A stretch of 64,000 nucleotides of DNA from Xanthocytophaga flava (GTDB lineage: Bacteria; Bacteroidota; Bacteroidia; Cytophagales; 172606-1): positions 124,001 through 188,000 of the forward strand of contig JASJOS010000011.1 of assembly GCA_030068525.1 (NCBI GenBank), given 5' to 3'. Each line of letters opens with the position of its first letter. The stretch's first letter is position 1. Both the position numbers and the translations under genes were made by a program. The notes under the pieces were generated by a model. It was not told where the DNA came from. It was given only the letters and a program-made list of their open reading frames with translations, and did no database searches. Shown piece after piece: positions 22,775-47,495 of the stretch.

Positions 22775-22857
22775 GCCCGAGTGGCGGAACTGGTAGACGC
22801 GCACGACTCAAAATCGTGTTCCTTCACGGAGTGCCGGTTCGATTCCGGCCTCGGGTA
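22775..22857 (+). tRNA. tRNA-Leu (anticodon CAA)
   Basis: The 83-nt gene has a type-II long variable arm. The acceptor stem gcccgag pairs with ctcgggt (one G-U pair) and the discriminator base is A. The anticodon arm cacga-ctcaaaa-tcgtg reads CAA for UUG. The T-arm ccggttcgattccgg is perfect. CCA is not encoded. The last 13 bases are part of the attL repeat, so the mobile element has replaced the 3' end with an identical copy and the gene stays functional. Confidence 0.97.
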
Positions 22858-22860
22858 CTA
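22845..22860 (+). repeat. attL (16-bp direct repeat within tRNA-Leu 3' end)
   Basis: The core ccggcctcgggtacta spans the last 13 bases of the tRNA gene and 3 bases beyond. It is exactly repeated at 47480-47495. Confidence 0.9.
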
Positions 22861-22933: not shown

Positions 22934-22942
22934 AGATTTGCA

Positions 22943-22973
22943 AGGCTATCCCTCACCGGATGGCCTTTTTTCA
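22943..22973 (+). terminator. hairpin with T-run near attL
   Basis: ggctatcc pairs with ggatggcc (including G-U) and is followed by a run of T residues. It could end tRNA-Leu transcription now that the original terminator is displaced. Confidence 0.55.
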
Positions 22974-23005
22974 TTATTGAGTAAACTTGTTTACTCAATA
23001 ATGAA
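22970..23005. repeat. 17-bp perfect inverted repeat near the left end of the element
   Basis: Left arm 22970-22986 and right arm 22989-23005 are perfect complements with a 2-base spacer (arm ttcattattgagtaaac). It is AT-rich and lacks a flanking T-run, so a protein-binding site is more likely than a terminator. Confidence 0.6.
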
Positions 23006-23129: not shown

Positions 23130-23915
23130 CTATTTTATTAGTCCTCTTTCTTTTTTGGTTTTCTCAATTAATGCAGGAATTTCAATCATGTTTTCAATTG
23201 GAGTCCCTAAATAGTCTAGTACTTTTAACCCTAATTTAGTGGGTTTACATAATCTCTCTCCACCTACAAGTCCTCCTCGCATACTAAGTAACTCAACAAC
23301 CCCTATTGAAATCATATAATCTAGACTTGCTTCAATAGTATCACTGCTTTTAATGGGATCAATATTATGATCTTGAAAAGCAACGACTACCACTAGTTCT
23401 CTTTCAAAGCCAAAGAACTGATCTCCAGGTGATTTTGGATTATAATTACTTCCTAATTTCACCGAGTCTTTACCCATTGACATTATGATAGATTTGGTTA
23501 TGAAATGCAAAATAGAGGATTGTAAGGGACTAATTCTGTTGATCGTATCAAGTACCATATCTTTTTCAGTATCATCTGACAACTGTACAGTACTTGCATT
23601 TGCTAAAAACTCAGAAAGCATTTTCCTCTTTTCTTGTCTATCTTCCTCTTTTCCTAAAATTGCAGTTCTCTCAATTAACCTTTTAGCCTCTTCCGATTGT
23701 AAATACTGCTGATCAACCTTATCTTTTAACTCATCTAGCCTTTTTGCATAATCTAGCAAAATGCTTTTTATGTTCTTTGTCTGTTTATAGCTCTTGTACT
23801 CAGTCCAGCCAGTTGCTAGACTAGAAACTATTGGAAAAGCAGATGCGGCGGTTATTAGTGTGGATTCAACTAATAATGCGATTTTGTTGTCGTTAGTAAG
23901 AAAGTCATTAGCCAT
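23130..23915 (-). CDS. Abi-alpha/DUF4393-like protein, candidate defence gene
   Basis: The protein has 261 residues. A hydrophobic segment lies near residues 12-35 (LLVESTLITAASAFPIVSSL), followed by a basic/coiled region. Then RKMLSEFLANAST and INRISPLQSSILHFI resemble the core pattern of Abi-alpha proteins (an aspartate/asparagine-rich ANLLASA motif followed by a LSPxxAxIL motif). The last third (EASLDYMISIGVVEL to LGLKVLDYL) reads like a winged helix. Abi-alpha members are linked to phage abortive infection. It is the first gene inside attL and lies 76 bases downstream of the Mrr-like nuclease gene on the same strand, a likely operon. The family call rests on motif resemblance only. Confidence 0.6.
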   Translation of the reverse strand: MANDFLTNDNKIALLVESTLITAASAFPIVSSLATGWTEYKSYKQTKNIKSILLDYAKRLDELKDKVDQQYLQSEEAKRLIERTAILGKEEDRQEKRKMLSEFLANASTVQLSDDTEKDMVLDTINRISPLQSSILHFITKSIIMSMGKDSVKLGSNYNPKSPGDQFFGFERELVVVVAFQDHNIDPIKSSDTIEASLDYMISIGVVELLSMRGGLVGGERLCKPTKLGLKVLDYLGTPIENMIEIPALIEKTKKERGLIK

Positions 23916-23991
23916 GTTTAATAAAGAATATTAATAAGCTTTTATGAACTGTTTTATGATAAGTAACCTTTATATCCTATATATAGGCTGT

Positions 23992-25083
23992 TTATTCCTC
24001 TATAATCCATTCGGAAAAAGTAATGTCTTTTTTTTCGTCATCTGATGAATAAACCTGTTCGACAAGTAGTTCTACTTCATAATCTGGTTCTACGATTATA
24101 TTAATTTCATTCTCTCTATCAAAATTGCGCGCTAATAAATGACATTTCACTGTTACCTCCTCAGCATCAAAATCCGGAATACAATAACAGGTAAAAGAAC
24201 GAGTATCTTTTTGAATTAAAGGACTATTATTTAAAGGTTTACATATCACTAATCTATCTTCCTGGTATGCCCAAGTGGTACAAAGTGCATAATTCGGAGA
24301 CAGATTAAATATGTTAGGACGAGGGCTGTCATCTTCTAGCTTCTTAACATTATTAGAGAATGTCAACCTTAGTTTCCAATCTTCTAGAACTATACTACCC
24401 GTATTTTTGATAGTTATGACTAATTTGCACCAACTTTTATTTGTTTTACCAAATGGCATTTTCGGTTTTTCAAACATCCAAGCAATAGAAGCATGTTTAT
24501 TAAAATCGTGCTTTTGGGGTGGATTCTGGGTGTATGTAGTAATGGTTTTGAGAAACTTAGGTCGGATTGCGCCATTATCATGTCCTGTATCTATAGTAAT
24601 AGAAACATCGAACTGATCTTTAAACTGGATATTGTTAACATACCAATTAAAAGTATCTCGATTCTCTTCTATGAGATCGACAAGGTCTTGCCAACAATAA
24701 AGCACTATTTCGAATCTTCCATTCTTACTACTCTCTTGGTCTTTAATACGAATGTATTTTTCTATTTGAGCATCTTTAGAGGCCGTTGTTGCGAATATCA
24801 GTACTTTCAAATGAGGTTCAAACGTTGAGGCCTTTATAATTTCCTGATCAATTTCTGATTCAGTTAATTTTTTGTCTTCATAATTATCTTTCCCTTTGCA
24901 TTGAATACCCCAGTACTCTGTTTCTCCCTTTGGCTTACCATAGACATCAATACCAGCCTGAGACTGACCAAGCCTGCCGTTCTTCTTAATAGTATGAGGA
25001 CAACCCCAGATCTCTCCAAAAAGCTTTTTACAGAGAGTTTCAAAGTCTTGCCAATTCTCAGGAGGTCTAATAGATTTTTTCAC
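23992..25083 (-). CDS. Mrr-like PD-(D/E)XK nuclease with beta-rich C-terminal domain
   Basis: The protein has 363 residues. The N-terminal 150 are a restriction-endonuclease fold of the Mrr type: E15 in NWQDFETLCKKLF, D46 in GQSQAGIDVYGK, and the Q61-C-K63 of YWGIQCKGKD, giving the D-Q/ExK catalytic arrangement. The same N-terminal module is found in several anti-phage proteins. The remaining 200 residues are beta-rich with an Ig-like feel (KLVITIKNTGSIVLEDWKLRLTF), which could be a sensor or oligomerisation domain. It is divergent from the GHKL-ATPase/nuclease gene with 204 bases between them, and upstream of the Abi-alpha-like gene. It is predicted to cut DNA; the trigger is unknown. Confidence 0.78.
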   Translation of the reverse strand: MKKSIRPPENWQDFETLCKKLFGEIWGCPHTIKKNGRLGQSQAGIDVYGKPKGETEYWGIQCKGKDNYEDKKLTESEIDQEIIKASTFEPHLKVLIFATTASKDAQIEKYIRIKDQESSKNGRFEIVLYCWQDLVDLIEENRDTFNWYVNNIQFKDQFDVSITIDTGHDNGAIRPKFLKTITTYTQNPPQKHDFNKHASIAWMFEKPKMPFGKTNKSWCKLVITIKNTGSIVLEDWKLRLTFSNNVKKLEDDSPRPNIFNLSPNYALCTTWAYQEDRLVICKPLNNSPLIQKDTRSFTCYCIPDFDAEEVTVKCHLLARNFDRENEINIIVEPDYEVELLVEQVYSSDDEKKDITFSEWIIEE

Positions 25084-25287
25084 AACTAATAAGGCATATA
25101 GTTCTACTCGTTAAGTTTATAAATTCAAGCAATAAGAATCAATCCCGGAAAGTAGGTATTTAATATACCCAAAAGTAGGTAACTATCTAGGGTAAAATCA
25201 CCTTGTTAAAACAGGTGAAAATACCTTTTCAAATGCATTGTGATTAACAATACTATTGTATATCATTGGGTTAAAACTATATTTTAG

Positions 25288-27330
25288 ATGGAAAAAGCTA
25301 CATTCTTAACAAATATTGCAGGTAAAGTTAGAAATACCAGACTACCTAAGGCCAAAGCTTTATGGCCATTATATGAGGTAATAAGCAATTCAATACACGC
25401 GATAGAGGAAAAAGGAATATTAAAAGATGGATATGTTAAGATCTATATAGTAAGACAAGGTGATCCAAATGTATTAAGAACTTTAGGTCAAGTCGAGGTT
25501 TACCCGATTAAGTCATTCAAAATAGTAGACAATGGAATAGGTTTTAATGACAGTAATTTTACTTCTTTTTTAACCGCAGAATCAGATTACAAAGTAGAAA
25601 AAGGAGCTAAAGGAGTTGGTAGGTTTGTTTGTTTGAAAGCTTTTAATTCGGTGCATATTAAAAGCATGTATACTGGAAAGGGCTCGAAACATTTTACAAG
25701 AGAATTCACCTTAAAGCCACAAGGTAACGGGATATTTGATTATACTATTAGTGAGCATGAAAACGAATTTTCAGATGAATTATCCACTACTGTTACACTC
25801 AATCAATATATTGATGATTACAATGCTCACTGTCCCAGGCTATTAAATGATTTAGCAGAAAAAATAATAGAACATTTTTTAATTTACTTTATTTTAGACA
25901 AATGTCCCAAGATAGACTTGATAGACAGTAATGAGAAAACCTATAATATAAACGAGTTATATGATAGAACGGTAAAACCTTTTGTTCAATCTGATGAGCT
26001 CCAAATTAAAGGTAATCTATTCAAAATCTCTTTAGTATACCTTTATGAAGTAAAGAATGTTCATAGAATACACTATTGTGCTAATGAGAGGGATGTTAGA
26101 TATGAGAAACTTTCAAAATTTATTCCTGATCTAGGTGATTATCAGAGTGATACAAATGGAGACTTTACTTATCAAGTATATGTTACGGGTGATTATTTAG
26201 ATGCTAATACTGATAACGAAAGAACTGGTTTTCTTTTTCCTGTAGACGACGAGCCACAAACGGAAGAAGAAGAAATGATTATCTCCTTAAAAGATATTAG
26301 AATCCATATCCTTTCATACTTAGAAGAAAAATTCAATATTTATTTGAGCGCATTAAGAGAAGCGAAATTAATTCAGTATAAAGAACATGTATATTATGAA
26401 TCTCCTCAATTTCGTCCTTTAATAAAGTATATGGAGGATGATATTAAAAAACTTCCTCCAAATCTATCAGGCAATAAACTAAATCTGGAATTATACAAAC
26501 TCGAAATGGAGCTAGAAATGAAAGTTAAAGAGCTAGGAGATACTGTATTAGGTAGTATTGCAGATCCAGATGAATACATGGCTTTGTATGAGGAATATAT
26601 CGAAAAGTTTAATGATATAGGAAAGGCTAACTTAGCTAAATATGTAGTACATAGAAAATCAATAATTGAATTACTAGATAAATTTTTAGGGCAAGATGAT
26701 AATGAAGAATTGCAGACTGAGGAAACCATACATAAAATATTTTTTCCTTTAAGGAAGATCTCCGATGAGGTGAACTATGAAAGGCAAAATTTATGGTTAA
26801 TTGATGAAAGGCTTACTTATCATAACTATTTAGCATCCGATAAGCAGATGCGAGCTATAGATGTATTAGAAGATAACGATAGTAATGATCGTCCAGACAT
26901 CTTAGTTTTTAATAATAGTTTCGCATTTGTTGATGATGATGCACCTCATAATTCATTTGTTATAATTGAGTTTAAACGCCCTGAGAGAAATACTTATTCA
27001 TCAGATGACGAAAAAAAGAATCCGGTTGATCAAATAATTAGTTATATAAGAACTATTAGAGAAAATAAAGCAAAAGATAGAAAAGGGAAAATTATACAGG
27101 TTGATAAAGACAGAACTCCATTTTATGCATATATAGTTTGTGACTTTAATGCAAATTTTAATCGAATTTTAGAGGATAGAAGTTTTAAAAAAACACCCGA
27201 TGGTAAAGGATATTTTTTCTATCACACTGAATATTACGCCTATATCGAAGTAATATCTTATCAGAAATTGCTTAAAGATGCTAAAATGAGGAACAGAGTT
27301 CTATTTGATAAATTAGGTTTACCTCATTAA
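25288..27330 (+). CDS. GHKL (Hsp90-like) ATPase fused to a PD-(D/E)XK-like nuclease domain
   Basis: The protein has 680 residues. The N-terminal GHKL ATPase is complete: N-box N34 in LYEVISNSIHAIEE, G1 D81-N-G-I-G in KIVDNGIGF, and the ATP lid G106 to G111 in EKGAKGVGRF. The middle is alpha-helical with a long coiled stretch (about 390-480). The C-terminal 146 residues hold a nuclease-like core with D537 in RPDILVF, then E561-F-K563 in VIIEFKRP, and QIISYIRTIREN, like PD-(D/E)XK enzymes. MutL- and MORC-type GHKL ATPases occur in prokaryotic restriction-modification and defence loci, which fits its place in the island. A 23-bp hairpin closes the gene. Function in defence is inference. Confidence 0.78.
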   Translation: MEKATFLTNIAGKVRNTRLPKAKALWPLYEVISNSIHAIEEKGILKDGYVKIYIVRQGDPNVLRTLGQVEVYPIKSFKIVDNGIGFNDSNFTSFLTAESDYKVEKGAKGVGRFVCLKAFNSVHIKSMYTGKGSKHFTREFTLKPQGNGIFDYTISEHENEFSDELSTTVTLNQYIDDYNAHCPRLLNDLAEKIIEHFLIYFILDKCPKIDLIDSNEKTYNINELYDRTVKPFVQSDELQIKGNLFKISLVYLYEVKNVHRIHYCANERDVRYEKLSKFIPDLGDYQSDTNGDFTYQVYVTGDYLDANTDNERTGFLFPVDDEPQTEEEEMIISLKDIRIHILSYLEEKFNIYLSALREAKLIQYKEHVYYESPQFRPLIKYMEDDIKKLPPNLSGNKLNLELYKLEMELEMKVKELGDTVLGSIADPDEYMALYEEYIEKFNDIGKANLAKYVVHRKSIIELLDKFLGQDDNEELQTEETIHKIFFPLRKISDEVNYERQNLWLIDERLTYHNYLASDKQMRAIDVLEDNDSNDRPDILVFNNSFAFVDDDAPHNSFVIIEFKRPERNTYSSDDEKKNPVDQIISYIRTIRENKAKDRKGKIIQVDKDRTPFYAYIVCDFNANFNRILEDRSFKKTPDGKGYFFYHTEYYAYIEVISYQKLLKDAKMRNRVLFDKLGLPH

Positions 27331-30572: not shown

Positions 30573-31514
30573 TTACTTACTCTCTACAAACTCTTTTGTT
30601 GACAATATCAAAAGTTGCCTTATTTCATGTTTCTCATATAAAGTCCTACCAAATCTTTGTAAATTATATAGAAAATTTTGGCTGTTATCACCAGCATCGC
30701 TATTAGATACTAAATCTTGCTCCAAAAGGAGTCTCCAATAACTTTCTATTGGAGTCCAACTGTTTGTGTTTAATATACGCACAAGTTGATCTGAAAGTCT
30801 AGAAGCATCACGTGAAATAACATTTGGAGAGTGCCAAGCAATATCAGTACCACTCGGAGAAAATGAAAAGTAATGTTCATGGGTATCTACTCTCTCGTGT
30901 GGAGGAATTGAAATATGTCCTCTGAGAAAAGGTACCATACCTAAAGCTGAAATCCATTTTTTCTGTATAATAAAAATTTCTTTATGAAAAAAGGGATCTT
31001 GTAAAAATCTATTATTCTCTTCATAAAGCATATTTCGGTATGAATTCATGTCTAATGTTAACGGTGCAACATAAAAAGCATGAGACATTCCTGTATTTGC
31101 AAATTTTAAAAGTATATTATGTTGAAAATCTTCTGCTGTAGCTGCCCTCTCTCTTAATTGAAAGTATAAAGTTGGATTATCATAAAGTTCATTTTTTCGT
31201 CTAAACGCTCTAATTTTATTCAATCCAATAATTTTATCTAATCCGAAAATTTTATTCAAACTACTAATCTTACTCAACCCGATTTCTATGGGTATACGAA
31301 AAGACAATGGTTTTAATCCATGCGAAACCTTAAATTGGAGATAAATTGGTATAACATAATCATATAACTTGTCTGCGCCAGTAATACTCTCATTAATGTC
31401 AAGTAATCGAAAAGGATACCTTTGGTTAATAGGAGAGATCCAACCAAAATATGTTGTCACATCAGCTTCAATTTGTTTCTCTGAAAGAGCGCTTTTAATT
31501 TTGAATGCCTTCAT
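30573..31514 (-). CDS. predicted PD-(D/E)XK-like protein of unknown role
   Basis: The protein has 313 residues. The N-terminal 70 residues show E-K-Q-I-E-A-D, then TGADKLYDYVIPIYLQFKVS, a D-x(n)-QxK arrangement like PD-(D/E)XK nucleases that start with an E-rich helix. A curious repetitive stretch follows (ISSLNKIFGLDKIIGLNKI). The rest is mixed alpha/beta with RGHISIPPHERVDTHEHYFSF. No family can be named and the nuclease reading is tentative. It stands alone on the minus strand within the island, and codon use is AT-rich like its neighbours. It could be a further defence gene. Confidence 0.6.
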   Translation of the reverse strand: MKAFKIKSALSEKQIEADVTTYFGWISPINQRYPFRLLDINESITGADKLYDYVIPIYLQFKVSHGLKPLSFRIPIEIGLSKISSLNKIFGLDKIIGLNKIRAFRRKNELYDNPTLYFQLRERAATAEDFQHNILLKFANTGMSHAFYVAPLTLDMNSYRNMLYEENNRFLQDPFFHKEIFIIQKKWISALGMVPFLRGHISIPPHERVDTHEHYFSFSPSGTDIAWHSPNVISRDASRLSDQLVRILNTNSWTPIESYWRLLLEQDLVSNSDAGDNSQNFLYNLQRFGRTLYEKHEIRQLLILSTKEFVESK

Positions 31515-31929: not shown

Positions 31930-33666
31930 ATGGAAAATATAAATCCGAATCTAAGAGACATTAGATTAAACCCGTCATCTCAGGATGGTCTAGAACTTGA
32001 CGTTGCTATAGTAGGTGCGGGAGTTTCAGGGCTTTACTCAGCGTACCGGTTGAAAACAGGAGAATTTTCGTCCTCAAATGATAATCCCAAGCTTGTTCAT
32101 GTGTTTGAAATGAGTGACAGGATTGCAGGTAGACTTGAATCAGTTTTTCTGCCTGGAATGGTTATCTCGGGTGAACTTGGCGGAATGAGATACCTGAGTT
32201 CACAGCAAATTGTGACACAACTTATCGAAAACGTGTTTTCAAAAGTTCTTAAGCCTATTGAGTTTCCAATGGGAGATCCAGCTGATTTACTTTTTTACTT
32301 ACGCAAACAACGATTTCGTGCAAACTCGTGGAGCAATGCACAGCAAAACGGGACAAAATTTGAAACCAGATATTATCTTAATAATAATGATATAGGTTTT
32401 AGTGCAGATCAATTGTTCAATAAAATTATTTATGATGTGCTAACAGCAGATCCCTGGTTTGTTGCTAATTATGGAATCAAAGTAAAACAAACAAGTCCCT
32501 ATGATTATACTTTTACTTTAACAAGTAGAGATTGGGATGCAATCAAACCACAGCTTGTTTATCATTTTAATGGTCCTTATAATGGGCTAAAAGTTAATGA
32601 TATGGGATTTTGGAATTTGGTAAAAGATCAGGTCTCTGAAGAAGGTTATGCATTCTTGGATGAAGCAGGAGGGTATTATTCCAATACGATTAACTGGAAT
32701 GCAGCAGAAGCGTTCCCATATATGATTGGTGATTTTTCAGGAGTAGATGTCACTTATCGGACGATAGAGGGGGGCTACGATCTGATTGCTTATGCACTTG
32801 CTTATTACTATTTACAAACAGACCAATCCGAAATATGGATAAACAATAGATTAGTTACTATTACTCCTCCTCAAGAGCCAGATGGATATTTTGACCTGTT
32901 ATTTGAGAATACAAATTCGGGAGAGAATTGGCATGTACTTGCAAAAAAAGTAGTATTGGCTATGCCACGTCGCTCACTTGAGTTATTAGACCAAGATGGT
33001 TTTCTTTTTCAAGATCCCAGATTCAGAAAAAATCTGGAATCTGTCATTATGGAACCTTCCTTCAAGTTGTTGATGGGGTTTGAGTATCCATGGTGGAAAG
33101 ATTTGATTGGGGCTACCTCAGGGCATTCTATTACCGACTTACCCATGCGTCAATGTTATTATTTTGGTAGCGATCCGGATGATACTGACTCTCTTTTCCT
33201 GGCTAGTTACAATGATATGAGAACGGTAACATTTTGGAAGGCACTTGATGATCAACATCCTCAACGCTTTGCGCCAAAAAAAACTAAATTATTTAATCCA
33301 GCATCCTTTACCAATATTAAGTACAAGGCATCTCAGGTAATGATTGATGAAGCTATGAACCAGGTTAGAGAATTACATGGGAGTCAGAATATCCCTGAAC
33401 CATTTATTGGGTTATTTAAAGATTGGTCTGATGACCCTTTTGGAGGTGGTTACCATGCGTGGAAAGCAGCTTATGACATTGCTCAGGTAATGCAGTATAT
33501 GCGTCATCCATATGCAGATAAGCCCCTATTCATCTGTGGAGAGGCCTACTCTGATCAGCAAGGATGGGTGGAAGGAGCATTTTGTGAGGCAGAAAAAATC
33601 CTACAACAGAAGTTCTTTATGTTACAACCAGCTTGGCTTCCTAAAACTTATTATCTAGGCTGGTAA
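31930..33666 (+). CDS. FAD-dependent amine/L-amino-acid oxidase family protein
   Basis: The protein has 578 residues. The N-terminal dinucleotide motif is VAIVGAGVSGLYSAYRL (GxGxxG at G29-G31-G34), followed by a dimension typical of amine oxidases (FEMSDRIAGRLESV). The C-terminal FAD signature is intact (PLFICGEAYSDQQGWVEGAF). The fold is that of monoamine and L-amino-acid oxidases, which make an imine or keto acid plus hydrogen peroxide. It has no signal peptide. It is first in a two-gene operon with a second FAD oxidase, 38 bases apart, under the palindromic motif. The substrate is unknown. Confidence 0.85.
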   Translation: MENINPNLRDIRLNPSSQDGLELDVAIVGAGVSGLYSAYRLKTGEFSSSNDNPKLVHVFEMSDRIAGRLESVFLPGMVISGELGGMRYLSSQQIVTQLIENVFSKVLKPIEFPMGDPADLLFYLRKQRFRANSWSNAQQNGTKFETRYYLNNNDIGFSADQLFNKIIYDVLTADPWFVANYGIKVKQTSPYDYTFTLTSRDWDAIKPQLVYHFNGPYNGLKVNDMGFWNLVKDQVSEEGYAFLDEAGGYYSNTINWNAAEAFPYMIGDFSGVDVTYRTIEGGYDLIAYALAYYYLQTDQSEIWINNRLVTITPPQEPDGYFDLLFENTNSGENWHVLAKKVVLAMPRRSLELLDQDGFLFQDPRFRKNLESVIMEPSFKLLMGFEYPWWKDLIGATSGHSITDLPMRQCYYFGSDPDDTDSLFLASYNDMRTVTFWKALDDQHPQRFAPKKTKLFNPASFTNIKYKASQVMIDEAMNQVRELHGSQNIPEPFIGLFKDWSDDPFGGGYHAWKAAYDIAQVMQYMRHPYADKPLFICGEAYSDQQGWVEGAFCEAEKILQQKFFMLQPAWLPKTYYLGW

Positions 33667-33704
33667 GGTCTATTTCCCTAATAACTATAATACTAAATAA
33701 CAAA

Positions 33705-34973
33705 ATGGGATTTCCAAAAAAATATGACATAATAGTGGTTGGTGGTGGCCCCATAGGCTTGGCGGCTGCTTACAATAGTGCCAAGCGTGGAAAAAGTGTT
33801 CTACTCCTGGAGCGATTTAACTTTTTCAATCAATCAGGCAGTTCTAATGATTTAGTGCGAATGTTTCGGACCATGTATACACAATATTTCATGGCTGTTT
33901 TAGCAAAAGAATCTATCCAGGTCTGGAAAGATTTTGAGAGTGATGCAGCAGAGCAGATGATTTTAATGACGGGACTATTAAACTTTGGCAACCCCAGCTA
34001 TGATATGGGGCCAGAGGGAAATCTATTAGACCCGATCAAAAACTTAAAGAAACTGGATATGCCATATAGGGAACTAACTGCAAAAGAAATTATGCAGGAG
34101 TATCCATTTAAAGATTTACCTTCTTCTTACCTTGGCGTTTTTGCTCCGGATAACGGGTGTATTAATGTTCCTCTGACACTTAGAAATCTTTATCGACTTT
34201 CCCAATCGTATGGAGCTGTACTCATTCCACATGTAGAAGTATTAGACCTAAAAATCAGTGAGGCTGAAGTAGTAATAAAAGCCAAAGCACAGACAGAGGA
34301 ATCTGAATTTATAGCAGAAAAAGTTATCATTGCGAGTGGTGCATATACAAATGATATTCTCCAATCAATCAATCTTGAACTTGATCTTCAAATATGGGAG
34401 ATGGTATATGAGTATTATGCTGCTGATCCCGGGCCAAAGGGGGCCTATTTTCCAAGTATGTGGTTTCAATTTGAGAATAACACGAATAATGATCCGGCAA
34501 AATCTAATCTTTTTTACGGATTCCCATCTGTACCTTGGGGACCACCAAACTTGATGAGAATAGCTGTTGACAATGCCGTGAATATCATTACAAATCCCAA
34601 AGAGAGACAAATCATTCCTTCTGCCAATGATTTACAGATAACAGCAGATTATGTGGAAAAACATATAATTGGTGTAGATAATCGCCCCAACTTTTGCGGG
34701 ACTTGTTTGCAAACCAATGTGGTTGACAATATGTATGTATTAGACTTTTTACCCGATAATATACCGGGACACAACCGTGTAGCTGTTTTTACAGCAGGTT
34801 GGGCATTTAAATTAGTCCCATTGATTGGAAAGATCCTCAGTCAGCTAATCATTGATGGCAGTACAACTTATGACATCTCTGAATTCAAAATAACCAGGCC
34901 AGGAATTATAAAGGGTAGTAAAAAAACAATAAATCATGATTTCAACAGATTATTCTATATTAGTCATATGTAG
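33705..34973 (+). CDS. FAD-dependent oxidoreductase, sarcosine/N-methyltryptophan oxidase-like
   Basis: The protein has 422 residues of the DAO family. The dinucleotide motif is YDIIVVGGGPIGLAAAYNSAKRG (G13-G15-G18). The C-terminal part has GTCLQTNVVDNMYVLDFLP, which lines up with the covalent-FAD cysteine region of monomeric sarcosine and N-methyltryptophan oxidases, and ends with HNRVAVFTAGWAFKLVPLIGK as in that family. Covalent FAD attachment is therefore plausible. It forms an operon with the amine oxidase, suggesting two consecutive oxidations on one substrate, or two sources of hydrogen peroxide. Confidence 0.82.
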   Translation: MGFPKKYDIIVVGGGPIGLAAAYNSAKRGKSVLLLERFNFFNQSGSSNDLVRMFRTMYTQYFMAVLAKESIQVWKDFESDAAEQMILMTGLLNFGNPSYDMGPEGNLLDPIKNLKKLDMPYRELTAKEIMQEYPFKDLPSSYLGVFAPDNGCINVPLTLRNLYRLSQSYGAVLIPHVEVLDLKISEAEVVIKAKAQTEESEFIAEKVIIASGAYTNDILQSINLELDLQIWEMVYEYYAADPGPKGAYFPSMWFQFENNTNNDPAKSNLFYGFPSVPWGPPNLMRIAVDNAVNIITNPKERQIIPSANDLQITADYVEKHIIGVDNRPNFCGTCLQTNVVDNMYVLDFLPDNIPGHNRVAVFTAGWAFKLVPLIGKILSQLIIDGSTTYDISEFKITRPGIIKGSKKTINHDFNRLFYISHM

Positions 34974-42638: not shown

Positions 42639-43610
42639 TCAACAAATGGAGTCATCCCACTCCTTCGGATAAGTCCAGAATTCGAGATAATTGAATCGCA
42701 AGAGATAATCTGCCAAGTCTAGGCCATTTTGTCTTTCTTCATCAGTAGCAACTGTTTCAAGTAGGTCTGATACTACAACACCTGGTATTTCTTTCGCCTT
42801 TTCCATCCATTTATCGTAACCATTCAGGTCTGGAAACAAGATTATTTTTCTGCCTTGAAGATGTTTGAACCGATCAGAAGAAATATTGGAGATCCCACCA
42901 GATGCAAGCCAAATCAGATCTGGCTTATAGATAAAAGCAATGACTGCCGTTTTTTCACTTTCTACGATGGCAATCGGTTTATCAGGCGGCTCTATGTCCA
43001 GCAGGTGCTCACCAAAGAAGCATTGTTTCAGATTAAAGTCATCTAGCTTTAAAATACGATGTACCCAATGAATATGATTGAATGGTTGTTTTACTCGTTT
43101 GCCAGTTGCTCTATCATATAACATGATTTTACCCGCTCTTGGCATCCAGTCTGTATCTAACTGCCAGAATACAGTCGCCCCAGACCAATATTTAGAACTA
43201 CCAATACAGTACTTCCTTACAGCTTCTTCAGCTAGTGTAATTCCAAATTTATCAGCCAAGAAAAGAACAAACTGATTGTGATAATAGGACTTCTCATGAA
43301 AGCTTTGTTTCACTATGTCTATATCAATAAAAGAAGGTTGCTTAACAGGCTCTGGAAACTTTTGCGTATTTGGAGTAGCGAGTTCTATACTCTTCACCTG
43401 GGGATTCTCCTGAAAATACTGTTTTGGTGTATAATGATACCCACAATTAGATTCTCGATTACATCGACCTACATGATCTGCCAAATACTCCCCTGTTGAA
43501 TGATTGATATATCTGGTAAATGTCTTTGATTGCTCACAGGCAGGGCATGTATATCGGTTAGCAAGCGTTTTATATGGCTCAAGAATGAAAGTATGCTCAA
43601 TTGTTTTCAT
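42639..43610 (-). CDS. DUF6371/toprim primase-like protein
   Basis: The protein has 323 residues. An N-terminal zinc finger is formed by CPACEQ (C-x2-C) and CNRESNC (C-x5-C), as in phage and plasmid primases. The toprim part has VESEKTAVIAFIYKP and a D-x-D-like segment FPDLNGYDKW. It most probably acts in replication or mobilisation of the element, with the RecA/RepA-like ATPase encoded 129 bases upstream. The gap holds a large hairpin and iteron-like repeats. Confidence 0.82.
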   Translation of the reverse strand: MKTIEHTFILEPYKTLANRYTCPACEQSKTFTRYINHSTGEYLADHVGRCNRESNCGYHYTPKQYFQENPQVKSIELATPNTQKFPEPVKQPSFIDIDIVKQSFHEKSYYHNQFVLFLADKFGITLAEEAVRKYCIGSSKYWSGATVFWQLDTDWMPRAGKIMLYDRATGKRVKQPFNHIHWVHRILKLDDFNLKQCFFGEHLLDIEPPDKPIAIVESEKTAVIAFIYKPDLIWLASGGISNISSDRFKHLQGRKIILFPDLNGYDKWMEKAKEIPGVVVSDLLETVATDEERQNGLDLADYLLRFNYLEFWTYPKEWDDSIC

Positions 43611-43626
43611 AAACTATTAGTAGGCT

Positions 43627-43735
43627 TCATTGGTAGGCTATTGGTATGTATTGGTAGGTTATTAGTTGGTAGGTATTAGTTGGTTGGTAGGTGGTGGTAT
43701 ATATAACCACCTACCAACCAACTAATACCTACCAA
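43627..43735. repeat. iteron-like direct repeats and 30-bp perfect inverted repeat, candidate origin
   Basis: From 43627 several copies of ATTGGTAGG-type strings occur (with variants such as ttggtatg), leading into the left arm at 43666-43695. The right arm at 43706-43735 is its perfect 30-bp complement with a 10-base AT loop. The structure sits exactly between the toprim and ATPase genes. It is a candidate replication origin of the excised element; a terminator is less likely as there is no T-run. Confidence 0.7.
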
Positions 43736-43739
43736 CCAA

Positions 43740-44876
43740 TTAACTACTATCACTATCTTCCAGAGTAAGTACATAAACTGAATTTCGTGTTGAACCACTA
43801 ATAGTCAAATATCCAAACTCAACAGCTGTCTTTAATGCATTCTTGGCTTGCCACTCTGTCTTCCCATGTTCATTGATTAAAATCTTCTTTAGTTCTGTTG
43901 CTGCAATCTGAGTGGTTTGTCTTTTGACAAATATTTTATTGATAAGATCTCGAATTAAAGTGGAAGAAGGTTTTTGAGAAGGGAGATGACTAAAAGAGGT
44001 AGTAACAGCATTAAACATTGATAAGGATTCATCCCATCCAAATGCTTGTATGGCAGCTTGATCTGCATGACTTAATTTACCATTATCAAAATCACTGGTA
44101 ATTAGTCTAACTCCATCTGTAGTTTTCTGAATTAGCAAAACAGCGCGAGACCATCTACACAAAAACGTACCTAAATGTCCAACTGGTTTTGTTGTCCCCG
44201 GGTTAGGGTGTAGTGTTGTTATGAGGCATAAATTATATTTAGCAGCAATAGCACGGAGCCATCTGACACATTCTATACTTTGTTCCAGATTGTTTGCATC
44301 TATAACAAAATCAATGGCGCCATCAATAACTAGAAAAGTGTATTGCTTAGCTTCCAAAAGCCTTTCTAATTCTTTTCGCCTATCTTCAACCTTAGCAATT
44401 TCAATAAAACATCTGAAATCTGCGCCTTTCAACTTTCCATCTTGTATTACATTCGAATCCTGGCCAAGTCTTTTGAAAATCCGTTTAAGCGAACTATGAG
44501 CATCATCTTTAGTACGTTCAGTATCTATTATTAAACATCGGCTTAGCTCATTTGCTGACGGTATACTGAAGTTGAGCGTCCCCATTGCCTCTGTACTAGT
44601 AACTGCACTTATAGTGAGGGTTGGAAAAACCTCCATTACATTTGTTTTCCCTGTTCCAGGGGCTGCGGTTAATAGAAGTATTTCACCTGGCCTGATTAAT
44701 TCAATTCCATTTAGAGAAATACCGGATTGCTGATTAACTGGGGTATAATTTAATGTTAGTTCATAACTAGTTTCTAGTTCCGATTGCAGCAAGTTTGATC
44801 CCTGATGAGAAGTGGGATGATCTAACAATCCATCCATATGGGAACGGATTCGATCTGCCAATACATCATTGTTCAT
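43740..44876 (-). CDS. RecA/RepA-like AAA ATPase of the element
   Basis: The protein has 378 residues. Walker A is LLLTAAPGTGKTN (about residue 70-83) and Walker B YTFLVIDGAIDF. The fold reads as AAA_25/RepA type hexameric helicase or DNA-repair ATPase, with a C-terminal winged-helix stretch (ATELKKILINEHGKTEWQAK). It is paired with the toprim protein and a putative origin, so it is probably the replicative helicase/initiator. Its stop overlaps nothing, but the start overlaps the upstream 66-aa gene by 11 bases. Confidence 0.85.
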   Translation of the reverse strand: MNNDVLADRIRSHMDGLLDHPTSHQGSNLLQSELETSYELTLNYTPVNQQSGISLNGIELIRPGEILLLTAAPGTGKTNVMEVFPTLTISAVTSTEAMGTLNFSIPSANELSRCLIIDTERTKDDAHSSLKRIFKRLGQDSNVIQDGKLKGADFRCFIEIAKVEDRRKELERLLEAKQYTFLVIDGAIDFVIDANNLEQSIECVRWLRAIAAKYNLCLITTLHPNPGTTKPVGHLGTFLCRWSRAVLLIQKTTDGVRLITSDFDNGKLSHADQAAIQAFGWDESLSMFNAVTTSFSHLPSQKPSSTLIRDLINKIFVKRQTTQIAATELKKILINEHGKTEWQAKNALKTAVEFGYLTISGSTRNSVYVLTLEDSDSS

Positions 44877-45536: not shown

Positions 45537-46241
45537 TTAATTTTCCCCATTTTTGGGGAAATAGGGGAAAAAATGGATTAACAATCGTTTAATTTCTTGA
45601 TAAAAGTCTAGGCAATTGTTTTTTATTCCTTCTCCTCTTTTTTCCTGAACCCACTTTTTCCAGGATGTGTTATGGGAAAATTTCAGAAAGGAGGAATAAA
45701 ACTCTAACTTTGCTTCAGGTCCAGGATTTCCCCTAAAGGCGTTAACCTCGCATAATATGTAGTTCAGAGATGTTATACCTATTTCATCTTTTATTCCATC
45801 TCTAAATCTGTATTTACGCCCATCCTTTATAAGTATCCCATTCTTAGATAAGACCTCAGTAATATCAAACTTTAACCAAGAATGCTTTAAAATAGATACT
45901 TTGGGGTCTTTTAGTGCTTCTCTCCAACCTATGAGATACCCAGTTATAGAACTAATTGCTAACTTTCTATCTAATATATCATTAAAGTCGTTTTGAACTT
46001 CTGAAGTAGAATAAATGAGCCCTTTACTATCAACCTTTTTCTTACAAACAAGAAGATTTTGATCTTCAAATATGTCTATTCCAGAATAATAGCTAATTAA
46101 TTGCTTCAAAAGATCTAGCTGTAACTCTACATCATCCAAAAACTCAAGTTTATTAGATATTGTGTTTAATATCTCTTCAGATGTTAAATCATTGATAAGG
46201 ATTTTATTACTATTGATTTCAAATGCCATATTAAAGTTCAA
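45537..46241 (-). CDS. hypothetical protein of the integrase operon, 234 aa
   Basis: A soluble helical protein with no recognised domain. Its start overlaps the end of the integrase gene by 11 bases, and it lies 48 bases upstream of the excisionase-like gene, so it belongs to the recombination module. The C-terminus is aromatic and basic (IKRLLIHFFPYFPKNGEN). It could be a directionality or mobilisation factor. Confidence 0.62.
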   Translation of the reverse strand: MNFNMAFEINSNKILINDLTSEEILNTISNKLEFLDDVELQLDLLKQLISYYSGIDIFEDQNLLVCKKKVDSKGLIYSTSEVQNDFNDILDRKLAISSITGYLIGWREALKDPKVSILKHSWLKFDITEVLSKNGILIKDGRKYRFRDGIKDEIGITSLNYILCEVNAFRGNPGPEAKLEFYSSFLKFSHNTSWKKWVQEKRGEGIKNNCLDFYQEIKRLLIHFFPYFPKNGEN

Positions 46242-47298
46242 CTTCAGGTAAACGACTAATCGCTTGTTGTTTCATACTATCAGCTACACGTACATATTTT
46301 TGAGTGTGCTGTGTGCTGGTATGGCCTAGAAGGCTGGCTACTGTCATCAAATCTGTTTGATAAAAGAGAAGATTGGTGGCAAAGCTGTGTCTGGCTACAT
46401 GAAAAGTAACATGCTTTTGCACACCTGCATCTTTTGCCCATTTCTTTAATGATTTCAGTACAGAAGTATGAGAGGGAAGATCAAAGACAGATTCATGGAA
46501 TTGTTTCGATTCTCCCAGTAATTGCATGGATATACTATTTAGATTCAGATGCACTTTGTGCGGGCTCTTCTTCTCTGTCTTGGTCTGTACAAAGGTCAAT
46601 ATGTTACCATTGATATTGCTCCATTCCAGATTACGAATGTCCACAAGCCGTAAACCTGAATAGCAGGCCAACAGGAATGATCGCTTTACTTGATCATTGT
46701 TACATGGTGCCTTTGCCAGAGCCTGTATTTCTTCAATGGTAAGAACATCTTTTCTCAGACTCTCCTGACGTGTATTTTTAATATCTTCAACAGGATTACG
46801 AGCAAAGTGTCCCTCTTTGAATGCCTGTTTAACGACTCCTTTAAAACGAGCAAAATAAGTAGAGGGAGATTCTCCTGCCAAGTTGAGATCAAGATACTCC
46901 TTGAATTTTTCACATAAACGAGGAGTAACTTCTGTAGCGCGAATCGAGGGTTTACCTATATAAACTTTGAAGGTTTTCAAACAGGCTTTGACTACACGAA
47001 GGTTTTTCTTGTTGTATTCCGCAGTATACTTCTCAAAGTACTTGATAAAATCAATGTTCTTTTTGAAGCTTACCTGTACACCATGGCCTGCCGCATTCAA
47101 CTCTAATTCCCTTTTGGCTCTGATGCTTTCAGCCAGGCGCATTGTCTCCTGGTTATGCTGGGTTTCCAGAGGGTTTTTGGGACGCTTGAATACATACAAT
47201 TTTAGATATTCTTTCTTGCGTTGGTTTTCATGTATTGTATCCAGATACAATGACATTCGACCTCCTGTAGCTGTCTTCTTCCTTAGTTTAACCGCCAT
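46231..47298 (-). CDS. int: tyrosine site-specific recombinase (integrase)
   Basis: The protein has 355 residues. An N-terminal arm-binding region, SAM-like core domain (about 100-190), and C-terminal catalytic domain: R in YSGLRLVDIRNLEW, HxxR in HVARHSFATNLL, the second H in LLGHTSTQHTQKY and the nucleophile Tyr in KYVRV. It is 182 bases from attR and read away from it. With the 16-bp tRNA repeat this accounts for integration of the element in tRNA-Leu. Confidence 0.95.
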   Translation of the reverse strand: MAVKLRKKTATGGRMSLYLDTIHENQRKKEYLKLYVFKRPKNPLETQHNQETMRLAESIRAKRELELNAAGHGVQVSFKKNIDFIKYFEKYTAEYNKKNLRVVKACLKTFKVYIGKPSIRATEVTPRLCEKFKEYLDLNLAGESPSTYFARFKGVVKQAFKEGHFARNPVEDIKNTRQESLRKDVLTIEEIQALAKAPCNNDQVKRSFLLACYSGLRLVDIRNLEWSNINGNILTFVQTKTEKKSPHKVHLNLNSISMQLLGESKQFHESVFDLPSHTSVLKSLKKWAKDAGVQKHVTFHVARHSFATNLLFYQTDLMTVASLLGHTSTQHTQKYVRVADSMKQQAISRLPEVEL

Positions 47299-47479: not shown

Positions 47480-47495
47480 CCGGCCTCGGGTACTA
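47480..47495 (+). repeat. attR (16-bp direct repeat)
   Basis: Exact copy of the tRNA-Leu 3' end at 22845-22860. Just before it, the 10-base string cgcttctttt is tandemly repeated twice (47448-47467). Confidence 0.9.

Follow-up and report, generated by a model that had tools for sequence, protein, structure and literature searches.

A probable cluster of single-gene anti-phage candidates, including a predicted GHKL–Shedu protein, at the left end of an element integrated at tRNA-Leu in Xanthocytophaga flava

Do three adjacent defence-like genes at the margin of a mobile element constitute a single anti-phage system, or are they separate genes carried side by side? This question is raised by a locus of Xanthocytophaga flava, which was analysed here within a stretch of 64,000 nucleotides (contig JASJOS010000011.1 of assembly GCA_030068525.1, positions 124,001 to 188,000), hereafter the window. 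A preceding inspection of the letters, made without database searches and hereafter called the sequence-only reading, listed three adjacent open reading frames (ORFs) at positions 23130–27330 and proposed that they might form a new three-gene system. All three ORFs were found at the positions listed, as follows.

23130..23915, minus strand: 261-amino-acid Abi-alpha-like protein (Abi_alpha PF14337, 22.8 bits, E 1.1e-4, cut-off 29)
23992..25083, minus strand: predicted 363-amino-acid Mrr_cat_2 nuclease with a C-terminal Ig-like beta-sandwich, GTG start (Pfam, motifs and model)
25288..27330, plus strand: predicted 680-amino-acid GHKL ATPase with a C-terminal PD-(D/E)XK (Shedu-like) nuclease, of the paraMORC3/VcSduA type (motifs, profiles and model)

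Based on the comparison of these genes with their relatives, we conclude that defence cargo is very probably clustered here, at the left extremity of an element integrated at tRNA-Leu, as three independently mobile single-gene anti-phage candidates and not as one system.

Co-occurrence of the three genes in other loci

The sequence-only reading had itself pointed to the gene neighbourhoods of homologues as the place where its proposal could fail, and the comparison, once carried out, went against the three-gene claim. A total of 24 distinct GHKL loci was collected, 11 from genomes and 13 from plasmids or phage; 18 of these were the distinct loci in a set of 31 sequences, after removal of overlapping copies, and six were obtained from a further set. 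Neither the Mrr gene nor the Abi-alpha-like gene was detected in any of the 24 loci (tblastn, E ≤ 0.1; in one scan, E ≤ 0.01), and the only Mrr matches in the set of 31 sequences came from two Mrr-seeded loci that it also held (L036 and L037). Likewise, GHKL and Abi-alpha-like genes were absent from all 80 Mrr loci, kept from 112 (tblastn, E ≤ 0.05), and no Mrr relative was present in 28 loci of the Abi_alpha family (E ≤ 0.1), where a single GHKL-like match of 47 residues (E = 0.056) was compatible with chance. On these counts the three-gene system was rejected.

Motifs and predicted fold of the GHKL–nuclease protein

The 680-amino-acid protein had been described from its sequence as the fusion of an Hsp90-like ATPase with a PD-(D/E)XK-like domain, and this description was largely borne out. 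In an alignment of 10 rows, comprising the window protein and nine relatives, the residues E30, N34, D81, G83, G85, G106, G109, G111, T167, D537, E561 and K563 were invariant (10/10), and N82 was present in at least 90% of the rows. The motifs D81-N-G-I-G and E561-F-K563 of the sequence-only reading are thus present in the window protein, but their residues I84 and F562 vary among the relatives. By our own assignment, the GHKL motifs I–IV correspond to E30/N34, D81/G83/G85, G106/G109/G111 and T167, respectively. A further set of 12 rows again showed no variation at the GHKL residues, at D537 or at K563, and E561 was conserved in at least 90%. The Pfam domain HATPase_c_3 was matched by the window protein with 20.3 bits, under the cut-off of 25; at E ≤ 0.1, HATPase_c was matched by 6/10 rows and HATPase_c_3 by 5/10. 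The AlphaFold2 model of the protein (mean predicted local distance difference test score, pLDDT, 79.7) showed a GHKL/Hsp90-like fold, and the 50 Protein Data Bank (PDB) matches listed for it by Foldseek were Hsp90 proteins and type II topoisomerases, for example topoisomerase VI-B. The check by structure prediction upheld the GHKL fold, while the nuclease assignments in the region rest mainly on motifs and profiles.

For the C-terminal domain, a profile of 12 C-terminal GHKL rows was compared with a profile of 15 SduA_C domains; genomes of the phylum had yielded 20 SduA_C matches, of which these are a subset. The two profiles matched with a probability of 86.8% (E 4.3e-6), although the Pfam SduA_C match of the window protein itself was sub-threshold. 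In this alignment the ExK motifs were aligned, EFKRP being paired with EIKKP-like segments, and IEVISYQKLL, at the close of the domain, with ends resembling IEIITYDELL. As controls, the Mrr profile was compared with the same 15 Shedu domains (probability 0.3%, E 0.24) and with the C-terminal GHKL set (probability 0.2%, E 0.26). A sequence search of the PDB with the GHKL profile returned only one weak match, BBF-14_binder4 (E 0.6), and no PADLOC model matched the GHKL protein at E ≤ 1. These results suggest that the gene at 25288–27330 encodes, as predicted from its sequence, a GHKL–Shedu protein of the paraMORC3/VcSduA type in Bacteroidota.

Relation to paraMORC3 and VcSduA

The fusion of a GHKL ATPase to a nuclease was not supported as new, and has precedents. 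The name paraMORC3 was given in 2008 to proteins described as combining a GHKL domain with a C-terminal E-D-ExK nuclease, of which a subset, mainly from proteobacteria and bacteroidetes, is described as stand-alone and without conserved neighbours (PMC2292703). In 2025, VcSduA of the Vibrio cholerae WASA lineage was reported to protect against phages as a single gene, protection being abolished in the mutants E27A and K557A; the same report classes VcSduA as Shedu type I-D, finds homologues in about 1.2% of its genomes and puts forward control of the nuclease by the GHKL domain (PMC12137116).

VcSduA, like the window protein, has an N-terminal GHKL ATPase and a C-terminal PD-(D/E)XK nuclease in one polypeptide. 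Residues E30 and K563 of the window protein aligned with E27 and K556 of a Vibrio fluvialis relative, to which it is 34% identical, and, compared through this relative, they occupy the places of E27 and K557 in VcSduA. VcSduA is described as acting as a single gene carried on a mobile element; the gene of the window protein too lies on a mobile element, and by analogy it may likewise act alone. The window protein differs in being from Bacteroidota and in its Pfam SduA_C match below the cut-off. The paraMORC3 family of 2008, as described, was defined by sequence and neighbourhood; its likeness to the window protein, compared by description only, lies in the same architecture of GHKL domain and C-terminal E-D-ExK nuclease, in the bacteroidetes range and in the existence of a stand-alone subset. 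WonAB of V. cholerae was dropped as a comparison, being described as an ABC ATPase with a separate nuclease.

Distribution and neighbours of the GHKL–nuclease gene

Relatives of the GHKL protein were found in 9/394 other genomes of the phylum (10/395 counting the window's own), on 59 of 72,556 plasmid records and in one of 50,697 phage records. The gene was not found in seven other genomes of the window's family (own genome only, 1/8), and a scan of viral contigs with the GHKL protein gave no relatives. The neighbours were read in 13 annotated loci (12 from plasmids and one from a phage) among the 60 records with a match, and differed between the loci, where CBASS-like genes, type I restriction–modification (R–M), AbiE, XamI R–M with SIR2, a Shedu-annotated gene and insertion sequence elements were represented. 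With Mrr and Abi-alpha-like genes in 0/24 loci, and with neighbours that differ apart from two small recurrences, the GHKL gene is without a fixed partner.

Individual loci showed further features. On a Vibrio fluvialis plasmid (L016:4622-8016), a type I R–M operon ends in a Shedu-annotated nuclease gene, which overlaps the start of the GHKL–nuclease gene; on a Salinivibrio plasmid (L155:1-8016), the GHKL gene comes immediately after an R–M operon of similar annotation. In phage vB_RanS_PJN03 (L019:2485-4509), the GHKL–nuclease relative adjoins the phage integrase and is annotated as N-acetylmuramoyl-L-alanine amidase; this gene is probably a misannotated phage-borne defence gene.

The Mrr-type nuclease with an Ig-like tail

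The second protein had been read as an Mrr-like nuclease (D46, Q61-C-K63) with a beta-rich tail, in agreement with the results obtained here. Mrr_cat_2 (PF13156) was matched with 33 bits, above the cut-off of 22. In an alignment of the window protein with 37 relatives chosen from the 80 loci, D46, Q61 and K63 were present in 38/38 rows, all of which matched Mrr_cat_2 at E ≤ 0.1; left out of this alignment were L064 and L091, each interrupted once by a stop within the match, and L095, affected in frame and by stops. The viral family phrog_8991, of unknown function, matched residues 6–136, corresponding to the nuclease part (78.3 bits). The model (pLDDT 85.6) consisted of an alpha/beta N-terminal domain and a beta-rich C-terminal domain. 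By title, the 50 Foldseek matches listed for this model were mostly proteins bearing Ig-like or beta-sandwich domains, with no restriction nuclease among them; the nuclease fold therefore rests on Pfam, the conserved motifs and the order of secondary-structure elements. A sequence search of the PDB with the Mrr profile gave one weak match, to a chitinase (E 0.0073, residues 222–264).

The Mrr protein of Escherichia coli has an N-terminal winged-helix domain (Mrr_N). In the 363-amino-acid protein, Mrr_N was not matched by Pfam at E ≤ 1, and the catalytic domain is N-terminal and followed by the beta-rich domain; we therefore regard it as an Mrr_cat_2 family nuclease and not as an orthologue of E. 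coli Mrr. With Mrr-type nucleases it shares the Mrr_cat_2 domain, above the cut-off and with D46 and Q61-x-K63 invariant, whereas the N-terminal position of this domain, the Ig-like beta-sandwich behind it and the absence of an Mrr_N match set it apart.

Mrr relatives were detected in 7/389 other genomes of the phylum, two near full length and the other five confined to the nuclease part, and the gene was not found in seven other genomes of the window's family (own genome only, 1/8). One scan of genome contigs gave the 112 relatives of which 80 were kept; by record title these were mostly from Bacteroidota, which the scan patterns, built from four Bacteroidota sequences, favour, and relatives from elsewhere included Fibrobacter, Treponema, Cloacimonadota and Desulfovibrio. 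Since no Mrr ORF could be read in L108 and L109, 78 of the 80 loci were left for neighbour clustering, and 75 of the 78 readable ORFs were at least 330 amino acids long. With four ORFs taken on either side, no neighbour cluster occurred in more than 6/78 loci, and the largest (six loci) was recombinase-looking, as judged from an example sequence. Plasmid relatives mostly covered the nuclease part only, with 1/47 records covering at least 80% of the query.

PADLOC gave a weak type IIG match for the Mrr protein (19.3 bits, E 4e-5), and NCBIfam gave nothing near a cut-off for any of the three proteins. No named system was matched for the family with Mrr and Ig-like domains in Pfam, PADLOC, NCBIfam or the titles and abstract openings of the literature searched. 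Judged by sequence, the protein is a member of a stand-alone, mainly Bacteroidota family without a recognised named system, and this family is the most novel part of the region. We tentatively raise the possibility that this mainly Bacteroidota family is a single-gene defence family without a name so far, its N-terminal Mrr_cat_2 nuclease being steered by a C-terminal Ig-like beta-sandwich that senses a phage component.

The Abi-alpha-like protein

Because its match to Abi_alpha lies below the Pfam cut-off, the third protein is named Abi-alpha-like only. The likeness to Abi-alpha put forward by the sequence-only reading was seen as a match, but a sub-threshold one (22.8 against 29 bits). The description of the protein as membrane-hinting was fair but weak, one hydrophobic stretch being present near the N terminus (19-residue mean hydropathy 1.85 at residue 12). 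The gene lies 76 bp downstream of the Mrr gene on the same strand, and the two may be co-transcribed.

No relatives of the Abi-alpha-like protein were found in 389 other genomes of the phylum, in plasmids or in viral contigs; among 290 other genomes of the order there were two matches, both marginal and partial, and stop codons interrupted one of them. By its sequence, the protein is nearly an orphan. The Abi_alpha family was found in 26/282 genomes of the order, over the cut-off in 19; in the window's genome, this family search gave no Abi_alpha match at E ≤ 0.001. PADLOC gave a weak HerA match (11 bits) for the Abi-alpha-like protein. Abi-alpha of Enterococcus faecalis prophage 6 is described as a single-gene, prophage-borne abortive-infection protein (PMC6356687). 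The window protein resembles it in a weak Pfam match, in length (261 versus 272 amino acids) and in its location on an integrated element, and differs in being below the Pfam cut-off and without a close relative; premature lysis is described as a feature of the E. faecalis protein.

The integrated element

The sequence-only reading placed the three genes just inside attL, and this placement was supported by the following features.

22775..22858, plus strand: tRNA-Leu (CAA), attachment site of the element (ARAGORN; Rfam tRNA, 56.4 bits)
22845..22860, no strand: attL, 16-bp repeat CCGGCCTCGGGTACTA, overlapping the 3' end of the tRNA (exact repeat)
46231..47298, minus strand: tyrosine integrase of the element (phrog_1 integrase, E 2.8e-42)
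47480..47495, no strand: attR, second copy of the 16-bp repeat CCGGCCTCGGGTACTA (exact repeat)

The integrated element, bounded by the repeats at 22845 and 47480, is approximately 24.6 kb long, and its attR copy is situated about 180 bp from the integrase gene. The G+C content was 35.7% for the element, about 39% for both flanks and 30–35% for the three genes.

Several other features of the element were observed. A hairpin with a 16-bp stem and a 4-nt loop (22970–23005) lies just inside attL, with a second terminator-like hairpin (22942–22967) alongside. A 313-amino-acid gene (30573–31514) gave a very weak match to an SUa-2TM effector (14.1 bits, cut-off 25) and contains an 18-nt-spaced repeat at 31212–31282. 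Two flavoprotein-oxidase-like genes follow at 31930–34973, the first strongly matching amine-oxidase PF01593 (77.3 bits) and the second assigned by eye; they are unusual cargo for a defence-bearing element. At 42639–44876, a protein with DUF6371 and a Zn-ribbon (199.6 and 97.6 bits) is encoded next to an AAA_25 ATPase, for which PHROG gave a weak primase/helicase match, and the two may represent a replication module of the element. A palindrome of 94 nt (43654–43747), with 47-nt arms that are 89% complementary, no spacer and GGTTGGTAGGT-like units, is located at the 3' end of this AAA_25 gene (43740–44876, minus strand).

Evaluation of alternative explanations

Several observations weigh against the interpretation of the region as three separate single-gene candidates, or against the Shedu assignment within it. 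The flanks compared were mostly 2–6 kb for the GHKL and Mrr loci and at most 1.5 kb for the Abi_alpha loci; contig or record ends truncated some of them, and L013 has almost nothing on its downstream side. The 76-bp spacing of the Mrr and Abi-alpha-like genes on one strand allows an operon private to the lineage. The GHKL gene also has recurrent company: a type I R–M operon lies directly upstream of it in two Vibrionaceae plasmids, in one of which the Shedu-annotated gene stands between operon and GHKL gene, and a DUF3800 gene is found at or near it in two other plasmid or phage loci. As for the nuclease domain, its core was poorly predicted in the GHKL model (residues 517–549), so that the nuclease fold is supported by the motif and is not shown by the structure; no Shedu structure was among the 50 PDB fold matches listed. 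The Pfam SduA_C match of the window protein was 16 bits, under the cut-off of 27, and 0/9 GHKL relatives scanned matched SduA_C at E ≤ 0.1. Finally, the match to VcSduA was judged through the V. fluvialis relative, of near-identical numbering, and not on VcSduA itself.

Some of the three genes might serve the element itself, in its stability or in the exclusion of competing elements, and not general phage defence. Their position between attL and the rest of the integrated element, the integrase that adjoins the GHKL relative of phage PJN03 and the 59 plasmid records with such a relative are consistent with this explanation. We consider it unlikely, however, in view of the published anti-phage activity of a GHKL–Shedu protein (PMC12137116) and of the R–M, AbiE or CBASS-like genes annotated in the flanks of at least 6 of the 13 plasmid and phage loci.

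A two-gene unit, in which the Mrr nuclease would work with the Abi-alpha-like protein as a membrane-linked effector and the GHKL–Shedu gene would be merely adjacent, is improbable. Only 76 bp separate the Mrr stop from the Abi-alpha-like start on the same strand, and no terminator-like site was found between the two genes, in a scan that did no better than on shuffled sequence (2 found and 2.3 expected in the region as a whole); promoter scans of the region likewise gave no better than shuffled sequence. Against such a unit, none of the 80 Mrr loci contained an Abi-alpha-like relative, none of the 28 Abi_alpha-family loci contained an Mrr relative within their short flanks, and no recurrent Mrr neighbour emerged, but with an Abi-alpha-like protein as diverged as this one, remote relatives could have escaped detection. 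Although unsupported by relatives, this unit was retained as an alternative because of the 76-bp spacing.

A single three-gene system, as first proposed, is highly improbable: it is favoured by the adjacency of the genes and by their similarly low G+C content (30–35% versus 39% outside the element), but the genes did not co-occur in the loci examined, the GHKL gene (plus strand) is divergent from the other two (minus strand), and a protein of the GHKL type is reported to protect as a single gene (PMC12137116).

Proposed mechanism and implications

For three single-gene candidates, the interpretation that we prefer, we infer three separate activities. By analogy with VcSduA, the GHKL domains would dimerise, and their binding and hydrolysis of ATP would open or close a clamp; built from the middle domain of the protein, this clamp may enclose DNA or a phage component. 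Its movement would license the C-terminal ExK nuclease, so that invading DNA would be cut directly and the host would not be killed. In the Mrr protein, the Ig-like beta-sandwich tail is probably the target sensor, and the Abi-alpha-like protein may, as its sub-threshold match suggests, be an abortive-infection effector.

The locus illustrates that lying side by side within a mobile element does not count as evidence that genes form one system. The Bacteroidota element described here, with its predicted GHKL–Shedu gene, joins the known carriers of an experimentally validated type, and the family with Mrr and Ig-like domains is a compact candidate for studying target recognition by a nuclease without a linked ATPase or methylase.

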